DNA from: Taklimakanibacter albus
GTDB lineage: Bacteria; Pseudomonadota; Alphaproteobacteria; Rhizobiales; Aestuariivirgaceae
Assembly: GCF_016595235.1 (NCBI RefSeq)
Contig: NZ_JAENHL010000006.1
Coordinates: 1,054,001-1,118,000 of the forward strand
Length of the DNA stretch: 64,000 nt
Direction of reading: 5' to 3'
Shown here in pieces: positions 41,070 through 49,936 of this stretch (position 1 is its first letter; the number at the start of each line of letters is the position of its first letter). The translations under genes were made by a program, and so were the position numbers. The notes beneath the pieces were generated by a model that had not been told where the DNA came from, did no database searches, and was given only the letters and a program-made list of their open reading frames with translations.

Positions 41070-41414
41070 ATGTTCATTACCCCCGCTTTTGCCCAGGCCA
41101 CGGGGAGCCCGGGCACCGGTGACTTCATCGGGATGATTCTGCCCCTGGTGATGATCATGGTGGTGTTCTGGTTCCTCCTGATCCGGCCGCAGCAGAAGCG
41201 CCAGAAGGAGCATCAGGAGCTGATCGGCAAGGTGGCCCGCGGCGACACCATCGTGACATCGGGCGGCCTCATTGGCCGGGTATCCAAGGTGGTCGATGAG
41301 CGCGAGCTTCTGGTCGAGGTCGGCGAGAATGTGAAGGTCAGGGTGGTGCGCAGCGCCATCTCCGAGGTCCGCGCCAAGGGCGAACCGGTCAAAGACGATA
41401 CGGCCAAGAAATAA
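41070..41414 (+). CDS. yajC: Preprotein translocase subunit YajC
   Basis: Small single-span subunit of the SecDF–YajC complex that assists SecYEG in export and membrane insertion. The 114-residue product begins MFITPAFAQATG, has a TM helix (GMILPLVMIMVVFWFLLIRP) and the conserved QKRQKEHQELIGKVARGD, VTSGGLIGRV. ATG 41070 follows AGAGGAG at 41055–41061. First gene of the secDF cluster. Confidence 0.95.
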   Translation: MFITPAFAQATGSPGTGDFIGMILPLVMIMVVFWFLLIRPQQKRQKEHQELIGKVARGDTIVTSGGLIGRVSKVVDERELLVEVGENVKVRVVRSAISEVRAKGEPVKDDTAKK

Positions 41415-41424
41415 GTCGAGCCGC

Positions 41425-42540
41425 ATGCTGCATTTCCCCCGCTGGAAAGTCCTCGCCATCCTGGCCGTGGTGCTCGCCGGCGTCGTTTTCGCGCTGCCCA
41501 ATGTCCTGCCAAAGCCGTGGCAGGACATGCTCAACGCGTATACGGGATTGCGGCCGATGACACAGGGCCTCGATCTCCAAGGGGGCACCAGCCTCCTGAT
41601 GGAGCTCGACGGCAAGGAACTGCGCGAGACGCTGATCGCCCAGCAGGTGGGCGATGTTCGCGCCCTTCTGCGCCACGAGGCAATCGGCTATGCCGGCCTG
41701 AAGCGGACCGCCGATGGCGTGCAGGTGACGTTTACCGAGGCCGCTGCCGCTGACAAGGCGCACGGGCTGCTGAGCCGGCTCACCCAGCCGGTCACCAGCG
41801 TGACCGGCGCCGATGTCCCGACATTCGAGTTGTCACGCACCGGTCAGCAATTCAGCTTCCGCCTGTCCGATCCTGCCATGGAGATCAGGACCAGTGAGGC
41901 GACCGATCGGGCACTCGAGGTTCTCAACCGCAGACTGGACTCCCTCGGCATCAGCGAGCTGTCCATCCAGCGCCAGGGGCTCAACCGGATCCTCATTCAA
42001 CTGCCCGGGCAGGGAATATCAGATCAGGCGAAACGGGCGCTTGGCCTGACGGGCATTTTCGCGTTCCAGATGATCTGTGACAACCAGCCGACGGACTCGG
42101 CGGGCCAGCCGCCCGAGGATTGCGCGGCCTATCCGCTGAAGGTCAGCTCCGGGCAGATGATCTGGGTGCAAACCGCGGGTTGGGCGGGTGTCGATGGCAA
42201 ATATCTCACCAATTCGGAAGCTCAGACCGATCCGACGACCAAAGAGCCGATCATCACCTTCAAGTTCAACGAGCAGGGCACCCAGCTTTTCGGCGAGCTG
42301 ACGGCCAAGAATGTCGGCAAGCCCATGGCGATCGTGTTCGATGGCCAGGTCGTCAGCGCGCCCCGGATCAACGAGCCGATTCTCGGCGGCTCCGTCCAGA
42401 TTTCCGGCCACTTCACCCCGGAAGATGCAAATAACCTCGCAATCGCCCTGCGTTCCGGTGCCTTGCCGGCGCGATTGGTCTATATAGACGCCGCAAACGA
42501 ATCCGCCGGCAGCGCCCCGGCGAAAGGGTCGGACCTCTAA
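41425..42540 (+). CDS. Truncated SecD paralogue: first TM plus periplasmic P1 domain only
   Basis: A 371-residue product that aligns along its whole length with the first part of the full SecD encoded directly after it: FxRWKVLAILA start, one TM helix, GLDLQGGTSLLMELD, AxRALEVLNRRLDSLGI, IQRQGLNRILIQLPG and INEPILGGSVQISGHF. It ends shortly after RSGALPARLV, where TM2 of SecD would begin, with a short non-matching tail and its own stop. The five other spans are lacking, so it cannot be a working proton-driven SecD. The frame is intact, with a normal position between yajC and secD. A SecD that retains only P1 would present a second periplasmic domain anchored by one helix. Confidence 0.85.
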   Translation: MLHFPRWKVLAILAVVLAGVVFALPNVLPKPWQDMLNAYTGLRPMTQGLDLQGGTSLLMELDGKELRETLIAQQVGDVRALLRHEAIGYAGLKRTADGVQVTFTEAAAADKAHGLLSRLTQPVTSVTGADVPTFELSRTGQQFSFRLSDPAMEIRTSEATDRALEVLNRRLDSLGISELSIQRQGLNRILIQLPGQGISDQAKRALGLTGIFAFQMICDNQPTDSAGQPPEDCAAYPLKVSSGQMIWVQTAGWAGVDGKYLTNSEAQTDPTTKEPIITFKFNEQGTQLFGELTAKNVGKPMAIVFDGQVVSAPRINEPILGGSVQISGHFTPEDANNLAIALRSGALPARLVYIDAANESAGSAPAKGSDL

Positions 42541-42541
42541 G

Positions 42542-44164
42542 ATGCTCTATTTCTCCCGCTGGAAAGTCCTCGCCATCCTGGCCTCGATCGTGGTCGGCAT
42601 TGCCTTTGCGCTGCCCAATGTCCTGACCAAGGACATGCAGGACAAGCTGCGTGAATACACCATCCTGCGCCCGTTGACGCTCGGCCTCGACCTGCAGGGC
42701 GGGTCCAACGTCCTCATGGAGGTCGACCGCAAGGAGCTGATCAACACGCTGATCGTGCAGCAGATGGGTGACGTTCGTGCCGTCCTGCGCGAGGCGCGCA
42801 TCGGCTACAAGCTCAACCGCACGCCGACCGGCGTCGCGGTGCAGATCACCGATGCCGCCGATACCGACAAGGCCAATCAAGTCCTGCGCAATCTGACCCA
42901 GCCGCTCGATACCGGTCTCTTCGGCACGGGGGTGGCGAGCCATATTTTCAGCCTTCAGCGCACCGGCCAGCAATTCGTCTTCTCCTTCAATGATGCGGGA
43001 CTTGAGGCGCGCGTAAGCCAGGCCGTCGACCAGTCGCTCGCCATCATCGACAAACGCGTCAACGGTACCGGCATCGCCGAGGTTTCCATCCAGCGCCAGG
43101 GCAAGGACCGTATCGCCGTGCAGTTGCCGGGCGTCGGCGACCCCGATCAGGTCGTCAAGATGATCGGCCAGACGGCGAAACTCACCTTCCAGCTCGTCTG
43201 CGAAAGCCAGCCCGCCGCCGCGACCGACAATCCGCCGCCCGACTGCGCCGCCTATCCGATGAAGGCGGAGAACGCGCAGGCCCAGACGCAACCGGTGATC
43301 ATGTGGGTGCAGACCTCGAGCGCCGCGACCGTGGACGGCGCCGATCTGAACAATGCCTCGTCGGGCTTCGATTCGCGCACCAACGAGCCGATCGTCTCTT
43401 TCAAGTTCAACCAGAAGGGCGCTCTGCGCTTCGGCAAGCTCACTGCCGATAATGTCGGCAAGCCCTTCGCCATCATCCTCGACCAGCAGATTATCAGCGC
43501 ACCGCGCATTAACGAGCCCATTCTCGGCGGCACCGGGCAGATTTCCGGCAACTTCACCGTCGAGGAGGCCAACAGCCTGGCGATCGTGCTGCGCTCCGGC
43601 GCGCTGCCGGCGCGCCTCATCGCGGTCGAGCAGCGCACCGTGGGACCGAGCCTCGGCTCCGACTCGATCCGGGCCGGCGCCATCGCCTCGGTCATCGCGC
43701 TCATCGCCGTCATGTGCTTCATGCTGATCGCCTATGGGCTGTTCGGCATCTTCGCCAATGTCGCGCTCATCGTGAACCTGATCCTGCTCATCGGCATCAT
43801 GTCGGTGGCTGGCTTCACGCTGACCTTGCCCGGCATCGCCGGCATCGTGCTCACCATGGGCATCGCGGTCGACTCCAATGTGCTCGTCTATGAGCGCATC
43901 CGCGAGGAATGGCGACACGGGCGAAGCGCGTTCAATGCGATCGAAACCGGGTTCAGGGCGGCGCTCGCCACCGTTCTCGATTCGAACATCACGTCCTTCA
44001 TCGCCGCCGTGGTTCTGTTCGGCGTGGGCTCGGGGCCGGTACGCGGCTTCGCCATCGCCCATGCCATCGGCATCATCACCACCGTTTTCACGGCTTTCAC
44101 CGTCACCCGGCTCATCGTTTTCTGGTGGGTCAGGACGGCCAAGCCCAAAGAGGTTCCGCTGTAA
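42542..44164 (+). CDS. secD: Protein translocase subunit SecD
   Basis: Proton-driven partner of SecF that helps pull exported proteins out of SecYEG. The 540-residue product has TM1 (residues about 7–24), the long periplasmic P1 domain with GLDLQGGSNVLMEVD and INEPILGGTGQISGNF, then five spans including FMLIAYGLFGIFANVALIVN and GIVLTMGIAVDSNVLVYERIREE, the proton-pathway motif D(S/A)NVL. ATG 42542 comes one base after the stop of the truncated paralogue. Confidence 0.96.
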   Translation: MLYFSRWKVLAILASIVVGIAFALPNVLTKDMQDKLREYTILRPLTLGLDLQGGSNVLMEVDRKELINTLIVQQMGDVRAVLREARIGYKLNRTPTGVAVQITDAADTDKANQVLRNLTQPLDTGLFGTGVASHIFSLQRTGQQFVFSFNDAGLEARVSQAVDQSLAIIDKRVNGTGIAEVSIQRQGKDRIAVQLPGVGDPDQVVKMIGQTAKLTFQLVCESQPAAATDNPPPDCAAYPMKAENAQAQTQPVIMWVQTSSAATVDGADLNNASSGFDSRTNEPIVSFKFNQKGALRFGKLTADNVGKPFAIILDQQIISAPRINEPILGGTGQISGNFTVEEANSLAIVLRSGALPARLIAVEQRTVGPSLGSDSIRAGAIASVIALIAVMCFMLIAYGLFGIFANVALIVNLILLIGIMSVAGFTLTLPGIAGIVLTMGIAVDSNVLVYERIREEWRHGRSAFNAIETGFRAALATVLDSNITSFIAAVVLFGVGSGPVRGFAIAHAIGIITTVFTAFTVTRLIVFWWVRTAKPKEVPL

Positions 44165-44176
44165 GCGGATAGTCAC

Positions 44177-45172
44177 ATGTACAGACCCATTCGTTTCATT
44201 CCGGACGACACCAAAGTCAGGTTCATGCTGTGGAGCCGGTATGGCTACTTCGCCTCCGGCATCGCCTGTCTGGCGTCGATACTGCTTTTCGTCTTCGTCG
44301 GCCTCAACTACGGTGTCGACTTCAAGGGCGGCACCGTCTTCGTCATCCGCACCGAACAGCCCGCCAATCTCGACGAGCTGCGCTCCAAGGTGAACAGTCT
44401 GGGCTTCGGCGAGGCGGAGCTGCAGGAATACGGGACCGGCGGCCATGAGGTGCTGATCCGGTTGCCGACCATCGAAGGCGGCGAGGACGTGCAGCGCGAC
44501 GTCCAGACCAAGGTCAAGGAAATCCTGGGGACGGGGGTCGAATATCTCTCGATCGAGGTCGTGGGCCCGAAGGTCTCGGGCGAATTGGCGGAATGGAGTA
44601 TCTTCGCCGTCCTCATCGCCATCATCGGCATCCTCATATACATATGGTTCAGATTCGAATGGCAGTTCGCCATCGCGACGGTGATGTCGCTGCTCCATGA
44701 CGTGCTCCTCTCGATCGGCTTCTTCGTGCTGATCCGGATCGAATTCAATCTGCAGATCATCGCGGCGCTCCTCACCATCGTCGGCTACTCTCTCAACGAC
44801 ACCGTCGTCGTGTTCGACCGCATCCGTGAGTACCTGCGTAAATACAAGCAGATGCCGCTGGCCGACCTGATCGACTTCTCGGTCAACAGCGTGCTGCCGC
44901 GTACCCTTCTGACCGCCGTCACCACGCTTCTGGCGCTGATCTCGCTCTATATTTTCGGCGGCGAGGTGCTGAAGGGCTTCACGCTCGCGATGATCTGGGG
45001 CGTCTGCGTCGCCACTTATTCATCGATCTTCTCGGCCGCTTCGCTGCTGGCGCTCCTGGGCGTCAATCGCGACGCGATCCAGATCGGTGGTACGGCGCAA
45101 GAGGAGAAGGCCAAGGCCAGCCCGAAGCCGGCGGCGAAAGCGAGCGGCAAGCCGGCCCCGGCGCGCCCGTGA
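44177..45172 (+). CDS. secF: Protein translocase subunit SecF
   Basis: Membrane partner of SecD. The 331-residue product has TM1 after MLWSRYGYFASGIACLASILL, the P4-type domain with VDFKGGTVFVIRTEQP, and the SecF spans with TIVGYSLNDTVVVFDRIRE, the D/N-containing proton relay. A Lys/Ala/Pro-rich tail of about 25 residues follows the last span. Starts 12 bases after secD. Confidence 0.96.
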   Translation: MYRPIRFIPDDTKVRFMLWSRYGYFASGIACLASILLFVFVGLNYGVDFKGGTVFVIRTEQPANLDELRSKVNSLGFGEAELQEYGTGGHEVLIRLPTIEGGEDVQRDVQTKVKEILGTGVEYLSIEVVGPKVSGELAEWSIFAVLIAIIGILIYIWFRFEWQFAIATVMSLLHDVLLSIGFFVLIRIEFNLQIIAALLTIVGYSLNDTVVVFDRIREYLRKYKQMPLADLIDFSVNSVLPRTLLTAVTTLLALISLYIFGGEVLKGFTLAMIWGVCVATYSSIFSAASLLALLGVNRDAIQIGGTAQEEKAKASPKPAAKASGKPAPARP

Positions 45173-46472: not shown

Positions 46473-48221
46473 ATGAGCTTCGCCGACCGCCTGCATCGCC
46501 TGGTCCCGGATCTTTCGGCGTCCCTGGCGCGCTTTCCCGTTCCAGCTCTCCTTTCCGTCCTCCTCTGCGTCTATGCCAATCTCGACGTCGCCACGCTCGT
46601 GAGCAACGGGACGGTATCGGACAATCAGGTCTATCTGGGCGGGGCCGCGGCTTTCATGGCGGCGGGGGCGGCGCATTATTTCGCGCAAGGGCGCGGGCTG
46701 TCGCGCCTCACCGAATTGCTCCTGGCGCTCGTCGTGGCGATAGTCGCCGGCGCCTTGGCTTTCTGGGACGTCTATCTGAGATCGTCCCATCTCTTCCTGT
46801 TCGCCGGGCTCCTGCCGCTTCTGATGATCGCCGGCTTCCTGAGAAGCGATGCGAAGCAGGGCGCGCTCTGGCTGTTCAATCTGCGCTTAGGCCTCGCCGT
46901 CGTGCTGGCGGTGATCGTCGGGCTTATCTTCGCGGGCGGCATCTCGGCCATCCTGGCGAGCCTCGAATTCCTGTTCAATGTCGATCTGCCCTGGCGCGCC
47001 CATGAACATGTCTGGGCGACCGCCGCGAGCCTGATCGCGCCGCTCTATGGCCTCTCCCTCATGCCGGTGCGGCTCGATGAAGAGGTGGCGCTCAGCGGCG
47101 GGCGCGACACGCTCATCGAGCGCGGCGTCTCGGTCCTCGTCAACTACATCATGGTGCCGATCGCCGTCGTCTATACGCTGATCCTGCACGCCTATGCGGT
47201 GAAGATCCTGCTCGACGGCGCGCTGCCCAAAGGCCAGATCGGCCTGATGGTGTCGATCTTCGCGGTCGGTGGCACCGCGACCTGGCTGATCGCCTGGCCC
47301 TGGCGCGAAACCGGCACCGTGCTCCTGCGCCTCTTCATGCGCTACTGGTTCTGGTTCACCATCGTGCCGGTGATCCTGCTGGTGATCGCCATCTGGGAAC
47401 GCATTTCGACCTATGGCGTGACGCCCGACCGCTACGGTATCGCCCTCATCGCGGTATGGCTCGCTCTGGTGACGCTCTATCTGGCGATAAGGCGCAACCG
47501 CGCCGACATGCGGGCATTGCTCGGCAGCTTCGCCATCCTGGTGCTGATCGGGTCGGCGGGTCCCTGGGGCGCCAACAATCTCTCGATCGAAAGCCAGTTC
47601 GGCCGCCTCGTCGGTTATTTCCAATCGGAGAAGCTCCTGACGCCCGAGAACAAGATCGTCGATCAGCCGCCGACGATCAGCCCCGACGGCAAGCGCGAGA
47701 TCGAAACCATCCTGTGGACCTTGAGCAGCATGGGCGGCCTCGACAAGCTCAAACCCTATTTCGCCGGCCGCAAGGACGATCCCTTCGCCGATCAAATGGA
47801 CAGATGGGGCGCGCTCGGCAATATCCGCAAGATCCTCGGCCTCGACATTTACACGCCGGCCACCGATCAGGTGAGCTTCGGCGCCGGCGCGCCGTTCATC
47901 CGCGACATCAGCGGGCAGGGCCGTCTCGTCGGCCCGATCCAGGTCACCATGAATGCGGCCGACAGGCCGGATCAGGTATGGGCCAAGACCAATGGTCAGA
48001 CGCTCGAGATCATGGTCGGCGCGCAGACATGGTCGCTCCCGGTAAAGCCCCTGATGGAGAAGGTCAAAGCCGAGACCACGTCGCAGCCGCAACTCGCGCA
48101 GCAGAAGCCCGTCATCTACGAAGCGGAGCCCGGCCTGACGCTCGTCATCATCAACGCGTCAGGCGAGATCGGCGACAAGCCGGGTTATGTCAATCTGGGT
48201 TTCTGGCTCATTCTCAAATGA
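46473..48221 (+). CDS. DUF4153 membrane protein, copy 1
   Basis: A 582-residue integral membrane protein. About eleven hydrophobic helices occupy residues 20–365; a soluble domain of about 200 residues follows (GPWGANNLSIESQFGRLVGYF … DDPFADQMDRWG … [12 protein letters not shown]). The pattern fits DUF4153, a family of unknown function. Its stop overlaps the start of a second, similar gene by four bases (ATGA). Confidence 0.82.
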   Translation: MSFADRLHRLVPDLSASLARFPVPALLSVLLCVYANLDVATLVSNGTVSDNQVYLGGAAAFMAAGAAHYFAQGRGLSRLTELLLALVVAIVAGALAFWDVYLRSSHLFLFAGLLPLLMIAGFLRSDAKQGALWLFNLRLGLAVVLAVIVGLIFAGGISAILASLEFLFNVDLPWRAHEHVWATAASLIAPLYGLSLMPVRLDEEVALSGGRDTLIERGVSVLVNYIMVPIAVVYTLILHAYAVKILLDGALPKGQIGLMVSIFAVGGTATWLIAWPWRETGTVLLRLFMRYWFWFTIVPVILLVIAIWERISTYGVTPDRYGIALIAVWLALVTLYLAIRRNRADMRALLGSFAILVLIGSAGPWGANNLSIESQFGRLVGYFQSEKLLTPENKIVDQPPTISPDGKREIETILWTLSSMGGLDKLKPYFAGRKDDPFADQMDRWGALGNIRKILGLDIYTPATDQVSFGAGAPFIRDISGQGRLVGPIQVTMNAADRPDQVWAKTNGQTLEIMVGAQTWSLPVKPLMEKVKAETTSQPQLAQQKPVIYEAEPGLTLVIINASGEIGDKPGYVNLGFWLILK

Positions 48222-49936
48222 GCCGTTTCCTTCCCGGCCTCCGGGCGGTTCTGTGGCGTTTCCCGGTACCAGCGCTTATCGCTATCCTGGGAACGATCTA
48301 TGCCAATCTCTTTCCAGTTCCGCCCGGTCGGCACGGTTGGGCAATGTGGGGAAACGACATAATCCTCCCGTGCCTGGCCGGAATGCTTGCGGCGTGTTCA
48401 GCGCATTATTTTGCGCGCAGCAGGCTATTCACCGGCCTCGCCGATATCCTGTTTGCGATTATCGCCGGCTTCGTGGCCGCCATGCTGGTCTTTCAGGCGA
48501 AGAGCTTTGCAACCGTACCCTTGTTGCTGATACTCGGGCTGGCCGCCTTCTTACCCATCAGCGGATCTCTGCGTGCTGGCATCTCGCAAGGCGCGACATG
48601 GCGTTTCGCGCTTGATCTCACGCAGGCAGCTCTGTTCGCGATCATAGTAGGGCAGATCTTCCGTTTCGCTCTCGCTCCCCTCGGAGAGGTGGAGTTTCTT
48701 CGCAGTGTGGATCTCCTGCTCGAATACCGCACAATCGTGGCCAGCCTGTTTCTCGTATCGCCGCTGGCGTTCCTGGCATTCCTGCCGGACGGTCCCAAGG
48801 CCGACGGAGCAGGTATCCAATCCGAACCGGGGCGGGTGGAACGCGCGCTGCTTCTATGCCTCAACTACCTCCTGATACCGGTCGTTCTGCTCTATGCAGT
48901 CGTGCTGCATTCCTATGCATTCGGCGGCTTGTTTGGCTACGGATTGCCGGATGGTATCATTACGTGGCTGACAATGCTCTTCGTCCTGCTGGGATCGATG
49001 AGTTGGGTCCTCGCATGGCCTTGGCGCAACGACGGTTCTGTGCTTCTCCGCCTCTTTCTGCGCAACTGGGGCTGGCTCACAATAATACCACTCATGCTGT
49101 TCACCTGGGCCGCATGGGAGCGTGTTGCCGCGCTTGGACTGACGCCCGAACGCTACGGAGTTTTTCTCGTCGCGGTGTGGTTGGCAAGCGCCGCGGTTTA
49201 CTGGTTGGTGCGGCGCGAAGAAGCCGATATACGCCTGTTGCTTGGTGGCTTGGCCGTTTTGCTGATAATCGGATCATTCGGCCCTTGGGGTGCGAAGGAA
49301 ACATCGGCAGCAAGTCAGGCGACACGTCTCATCGGCCTGCTCAAGGCCGAGCAGGCACTCACGCCCGAGGGAAAGCTTCTTCACACACAGCCTGTATGGA
49401 ACGCCGCTAAAAACAACAGAATTGGCGCGGCGCTCTCGGATTTGAGCCAATTGAACGGACTTGCGCGGATCAGACCGCTTTTCGCGGGCCGCAGGGATGA
49501 TCCCTTTGTGCCGAACAGCACGGAAGGAAATCTCCTTCGGGATATTCGGGCGCGCTTGAAGATCGAGTTTTATGTGCGCGAACACGACGATGTGAGGTTC
49601 AATGGTGACCTGCCTTTAACGCAGGACGTCGGTACGCAAAGCCGTCTGATCGGACCCGTCAAATTAAGCATGTTTCCCGGCGTGATGCCGAGGGGAGGCG
49701 CCTATGCCGAAAGTGACGGTCACACGTTGTTTGTGACCGTGGGACAACGGAAGTGGGATATCCTACTTCAACCACTCATGGAGAAGCTCAAAGCCGCTAC
49801 CGCGCCTGACCGGATACAGGCCTATGTCCATGAAGTCGATCCAAACATGTCTCTTGTCGTCAGCGAGGCTTCCGGCACCCTTGGTGAGAAGCAGCGCGAC
49901 TTCCGTATGACCTTCTGGCTCATTCTGCGGCAATAG
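48218..49936 (+). CDS. DUF4153 membrane protein, copy 2
   Basis: A 572-residue paralogue of the preceding protein with the same layout: [18 protein letters not shown], membrane part with [24 protein letters not shown], then [42 protein letters not shown] and a final [14 protein letters not shown] 48218 overlaps the stop of copy 1. GC content and codon choice look lower than in copy 1, so this copy may be older or separately acquired. Its end overlaps the trmFO end by 17 bases on the other strand. Confidence 0.82.

Follow-up and report, generated by a model that had tools for sequence, protein, structure and literature searches.

A SecD paralogue of Taklimakanibacter albus that ends before TM2, and P1-only SecDs of separate origin in other genera

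Extra SecD-type genes within a single genome, as at the locus described here, are reported for Streptomyces, which carries SecD/F together with SecDF according to PMC4139356, and for Vibrio, whose SecD2/F2 are described in PMC11470409. A different kind of gene beside secD(F) encodes the ApdP/VemP-type arrest peptides, exported frames that, like the gene studied here, lie on the strand of secD(F) and upstream of it; ApdP frames upstream of secDF in Alphaproteobacteria are described in PMC10987492, where the screen is stated to have taken frames of less than 300 aa. SecD is a protein translocase subunit that assists the passage of proteins across the cell membrane. Its P1 head is placed over the SecY exit by PMC5141469, which suggests substrate contact, and is described as critical for translocation in PMC9508474. 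Our search of the open-access literature, with most subscription papers falling outside it, found no description of P1-only SecD genes. We describe such a gene here, and tentatively read it as a functional, probably TM1-anchored, P1-only SecD paralogue, a repeatedly evolved accessory module that perhaps holds clients at the Sec exit.

The window, which denotes the whole stretch of 64,000 nucleotides that was analyzed, contains a cluster of four plus-strand genes in which two secD-like genes stand in tandem between yajC and secF, as an earlier note on this DNA had proposed. The cluster opens with yajC (41070..41414; Pfam YajC 3e-29, TIGR00739 1.6e-26), followed after 10 nt by a short secD paralogue of 371 aa (41425..42540), after 1 nt by secD of 540 aa (42542..44164), and after a further 12 nt by secF of 331 aa (44177..45172; TIGR00966 309.9 bits, cut-off 160). 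The second secD is complete, as had also been claimed: it scores 459.5 bits against TIGR01129 (cut-off 244.4), matches SecD_SecF_C (PF02355) and has six hydrophobic segments. The junction of the two genes reads TAA-G-ATG, and readthrough fusing them was ruled out, since their frames differ and the TAA lies between them. The two proteins are 54% identical (205 of 379 alignment columns). Across the whole genome the P1 head matches only these two proteins, with no third, while PF02355 matches this secF, this secD and, more weakly, eight frames of 1038-1105 aa; a scan of the genome contigs with the short SecD as query gave no match. Elsewhere in the window, two adjoining membrane-protein frames at 46473-49936 appear by eye to be tandem paralogues of each other.

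The short gene is intact and codes for TM1 and the P1 domain, with its stop before TM2, a reading of the earlier note that Pfam and a simple hydropathy scan both bear out. The protein passes the Pfam cut-offs for SecD-TM1 (33.1 bits, cut-off 30.5), Sec_GG (22.1, cut-off 20.3), SecD_1st (53.8) and SecDF_P1_head (122.5; cut-offs of 27 for these last two), and has no match to SecD_SecF_C. Its single hydrophobic segment, TM1, spans residues 9-27 (41449..41505), and the P1 head subdomain (PF22599, 9.9e-36) spans residues 244-349 (42154..42471); the motifs LDLQGG, QLPGQG and INEPILGG, which the note had picked out, are all present. The second hydrophobic segment of the full SecD, at residues 378-396, has no counterpart in the short protein, which terminates 26 residues past the G of the GALPA motif in a hydrophilic tail (42478..42540, stop included) where the full SecD continues into TM2. 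An AlphaFold model built from seven sequences reached a mean pLDDT of 73.7 and a pTM of 0.63, the five models ranging from 49.8 to 73.7 in pLDDT. Foldseek searches of this model against the PDB returned 11 matches at E <=0.001, all of them SecD or SecDF, the best being 5xan (6.7e-16).

Conservation within the genus was assessed in five genomes, from G000 (the window) to G004. In G001 the same intact arrangement occupies the same place, with identities of 87% for the short SecD and 95% for the full SecD; the presence of this arrangement with diverged sequence rules out an assembly artefact. The short frame is free of stops and frameshifts in both species, and its dN/dS for this pair is 0.27 (bootstrap CI 0.18-0.39), so that the gene is under purifying selection between the two species, the one such pair in the genus. 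The corresponding value for the P1 part of the full secD is 0.16 (CI 0.09-0.26), an interval that overlaps that of the short gene, and pairwise values are 0.14 for the whole full secD and 0.04 for secF. The last 26 sense codons and the stop are identical in DNA between G000 and G001; constraint on this 3' end at the RNA level was considered and dropped, as a 41-codon run lacking synonymous change is unexceptional under random placement (p 0.12). The one-contig genome G003 retains at this site only an in-frame remnant of 46 codons, which largely preserves the tail and matches the C-terminus of the short SecD at 71% identity over its last 38 residues; in G002 and G004 there is no trace of the gene, yajC being followed directly by secD. 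The remnant (L035 4367-4507) is still an open frame, with its stop 1 nt before secD. The short gene is therefore dispensable in places; it probably predates the split of G003 and was afterwards lost there.

A 35-row tree of the P1 region places the two short proteins inside the full SecDs of their own genus (support 93/99). Their stem measures 0.87 changes per column (0.62 in a 75-row tree), with tips of 0.07-0.11, and the tips leading to the full SecDs of these species measure 0.04-0.05; the long stem set against the short tips points to fast change after the duplication, followed by slower change. Thus a copy of SecD, arisen on the stem of the genus or inside it, has changed fast and today stops short of TM2. 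Synonymous divergence between the short and full genes (dS 0.87-0.94) exceeds the value for the complete genes of G000 and G002 (0.50), which hints that the duplication is older than the genus split, although dS values this large are unsure.

Surveys of related genomes addressed whether other genera carry comparable genes. In the family, 67 of 69 genomes gave a match (G053 and G063 gave none), and the short secD was found only in G000 and G001, together with the G003 remnant. Three further tandem cases (G009, G046 and G076) were rejected as P1 pieces on two contigs whose ends overlap at 98.9%, 90.6% and 100% identity, respectively, and are read as one gene broken by assembly, G046 being the least sure. 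In the order, 397 genomes were searched and 71 multi-match genomes, picked by eye among the matches listed, were searched again; tandem P1-only genes were seen among these 71 in G170, G289 and G273. A search of 385 genomes at class level, with 17 multi-match genomes picked by eye in the same way and searched again, showed no tandem P1-only gene among the 17. The survey detects short genes whose head lies within reach of PF22599 and is blind to those diverged beyond it, and three P1-head frames were left out of the reading: one close to the end of a contig in G376 (C87), and unlinked ones in G704 (C27) and G763 (C27).

In g70, the genus of G170, 14 of 61 genomes have a P1-only frame immediately upstream of a fused SecDF, and all 14 frames were read. 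G273 (genus g39) has the arrangement yajC-short-secD-secF, found in one of the five genomes of its genus; one unread base near the start of its short gene leaves the start position unsure. In g44, the genus of G312, a P1-only gene unlinked to secDF is present in 25 of 60 genomes. From these 25 genomes with a strong second match we used eight loci, a further one (L062, G102) being dropped as its frame runs into a longer one, and seven of the eight share neighbors on both sides, which by eye alone look like an acyl-CoA-ligase gene and a cyclic-nucleotide-domain gene. Many of these unlinked genes (L055 2061-3158 and seven further loci, L054 and L056-L061) have an early AxA motif, a candidate signal-peptide site, and their product is possibly a secreted P1 protein. 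The motif, which might mark a TM1 that has become a cleavable signal peptide, occurs early in 7 of 14 g70 short proteins and 7 of 8 g44 proteins, but the complete SecD encoded in the window has it too. All 25 P1-only proteins that were read lack TM2, have at most one hydrophobic segment and end 13-26 residues past the G of GALPA. In each genus where they occur, P1-only SecDs are carried by a minority of genomes.

Other P1-head matches were of a different kind. Small frames with little beyond the P1 head lie far from secDF at L063 2571-3224, L064 2410-2967, L066 2861-4096 and L067 2873-3808, some with signal-peptide-like starts, and similar weak matches occur in other genomes. At L070 2917-4242 (G017), a P1-head-like stretch is followed in the same frame by repeats that look by eye to be of TPR type.

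The 75-row tree shows that the P1-only architecture has separate origins in other genera. The short proteins of the window genus, of g70 and of G273 are each placed with full-length copies from the genus or genome that carries them; the g44 group is set apart by a branch of 1.05. Approximately unbiased (AU) tests, covering two groupings that were both chosen after the tree had been seen, with the g70-G273 pairing outside them, rejected a joining of the window and g70 shorts (146 log units, p 2.6e-6) and of the window and G273 shorts (120 log units, p 3.5e-4). Locus L073 enters the conserved-column count and the half-protein trees described below, and is absent from the 75-row tree and the AU tests. 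Quick trees of the P1-head half and of the N-terminal half recovered the same groupings; patchy gene conversion as the source of the separate placements is thus unsupported, both halves being in agreement, although the window genus reaches a support of just 72 in the head-half tree. Constraint was also measured in g70, where nine pairs of shorts, which overlap and are not independent, gave dN/dS values of 0.17-0.31 with upper bounds of up to 0.53, and the P1 part of the full copies gave 0.03-0.17 for the same pairs. In 10 of 10 pairs the short genes have a higher dN/dS than the P1 part of the full SecD. Separate origins with one end point argue for a selected module and not an accident, and the fact that other bacterial groups appear to have arrived independently at similar cut-down copies suggests that the P1 (gripping) domain is useful by itself.

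These results bear on the explanation that the short secD is a decaying tandem duplicate, truncated by chance, that persists in two species while a third has lost it already. The deletion remnant in G003, the lack of any trace in G002 and G004, the looser constraint than in full SecD and the long stem branch are all consistent with decay. However, the frame is intact in two species with a dN/dS of 0.27 (CI 0.18-0.39), the tips that follow the stem are slow, and separate lineages have arrived at the same end point, which 14 of 61 g70 genomes retain; we therefore regard decay as unlikely. The earlier note had taken the gene to be a kept gene and not a pseudogene, and purifying selection, the predicted P1 fold and the same truncation in other genera support that view. 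Its proposed signs of decay, a dN/dS near one or stops, are absent from G000 and G001, but the gene is mostly gone from G003.

To determine which parts of P1 have been kept, we used 69 columns conserved in >=92% of 51 full-length P1 regions, 40 of which lie in the head and end. Head and end cells are kept at 72/80 in the window pair, 469/560 in g70, 33/40 in G273 and 263/320 in g44, and the head columns show the highest retention in each of the four groups (82-90% of cells). Over the GG-motif region, the counts are 16/18, 40/126, 3/9 and 18/72, respectively, and for the P1 base they are 27/32 in the window genus, 129/224 in g70 and 73/128 in g44. The P1 head is thus the common core of the P1-only SecDs, and the GG motif is well kept in the window genus only; g70 and g44 have lost most of the GG-motif region, so their shorts may work differently.

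The same counts weigh on the proposal that the short protein is a decoy or negative regulator, a P1 domain that tunes or lowers SecDF activity through competition with the complete copy for SecF, YajC, SecYEG or clients. The 1-nt spacing to secD, which makes co-transcription probable, would fit such a role, as would the well-kept base and GG motif of the window genus. The base, which would be the contact site, is however eroded in both g70 and g44, and the g44 copies are unlinked to secDF, so a decoy seems improbable to us. Least credible, and very unlikely, is that the gene is an ApdP-like secretion monitor, an exported upstream frame whose 3' end stalls the ribosome and so sets secD translation: its place directly upstream of secD, its N-terminal hydrophobic segment, the DNA-identical 3' end and the in-frame sparing of that end by the G003 deletion would fit, as would the ApdP frames upstream of secDF in Alphaproteobacteria (PMC10987492), but neither the window protein nor that of G001 has a RAPP-like motif in its final 80 residues, RAGP appears in only one of 25 proteins (L072) and there within the ordinary GPLPAR motif, the 41-codon run is unexceptional, the g44 copies are unlinked to secDF, and the spared end may just carry the secD ribosome site.

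We return to a functional P1-only paralogue as the preferred explanation. The short SecD would be anchored by TM1 and would place an extra P1 in the periplasm close to the Sec exit, where its P1 head could bind emerging chains and act as a holding or hand-over factor. Because the transmembrane bundle is missing, it would be unable to use the proton gradient itself, and would work beside the normal SecDF encoded adjacent to it. If some lineages profit from such a factor and others can do without it, the patchy distribution would be accounted for. A wider reading, which we consider rather doubtful, is that P1-only SecDs are a recurrent accessory of bacterial protein export, either anchored or secreted and independent of protons. 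Such modules would have arisen by at least three truncations of tandem SecD(F) copies, with an unlinked group in a further genus, and would hold emerging proteins at the Sec exit or pass them on. If this is true, selection can act on the P1 head even where the proton-driven motor is missing. The use of the proton gradient and of a moving P1 by SecDF is still debated, and natural genes that have P1 and lack the motor offer ready-made tests of what P1 alone contributes to export.

The comparison with known systems defines what is distinctive about this gene. With SecD (TIGR01129) the short protein shares TM1, the GG motif, the P1 base, the P1 head and a place between yajC and secF; the yajC-short-secD-secF arrangement, for which the earlier note had proposed a search, recurs in another genus, that of G273. 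It differs in having neither the TM2-TM6 bundle, the RND-type C-terminal part with the proton path, nor SecD_SecF_C and scores 174 bits against the curated cut-off of 244.4, and because it lacks the membrane bundle and falls below this cut-off it is not a SecD by membership. Its action would resemble at most that of the P1 part of SecD. The model of the short SecD is predicted to share the fold of the 229-residue Thermus SecDF P1 fragment (PDB 3aqo; Foldseek E 2.7e-14, TM-score 0.69 by target length, residues 153-352 matched), but that is a laboratory fragment without TM1, whereas the short secD is a natural gene. In contrast to the second sets of Streptomyces and Vibrio, which are complete subunits, the window copy consists of TM1 and P1 only, and unlike the ApdP/VemP-type peptides it is a 371-aa homologue of SecD.
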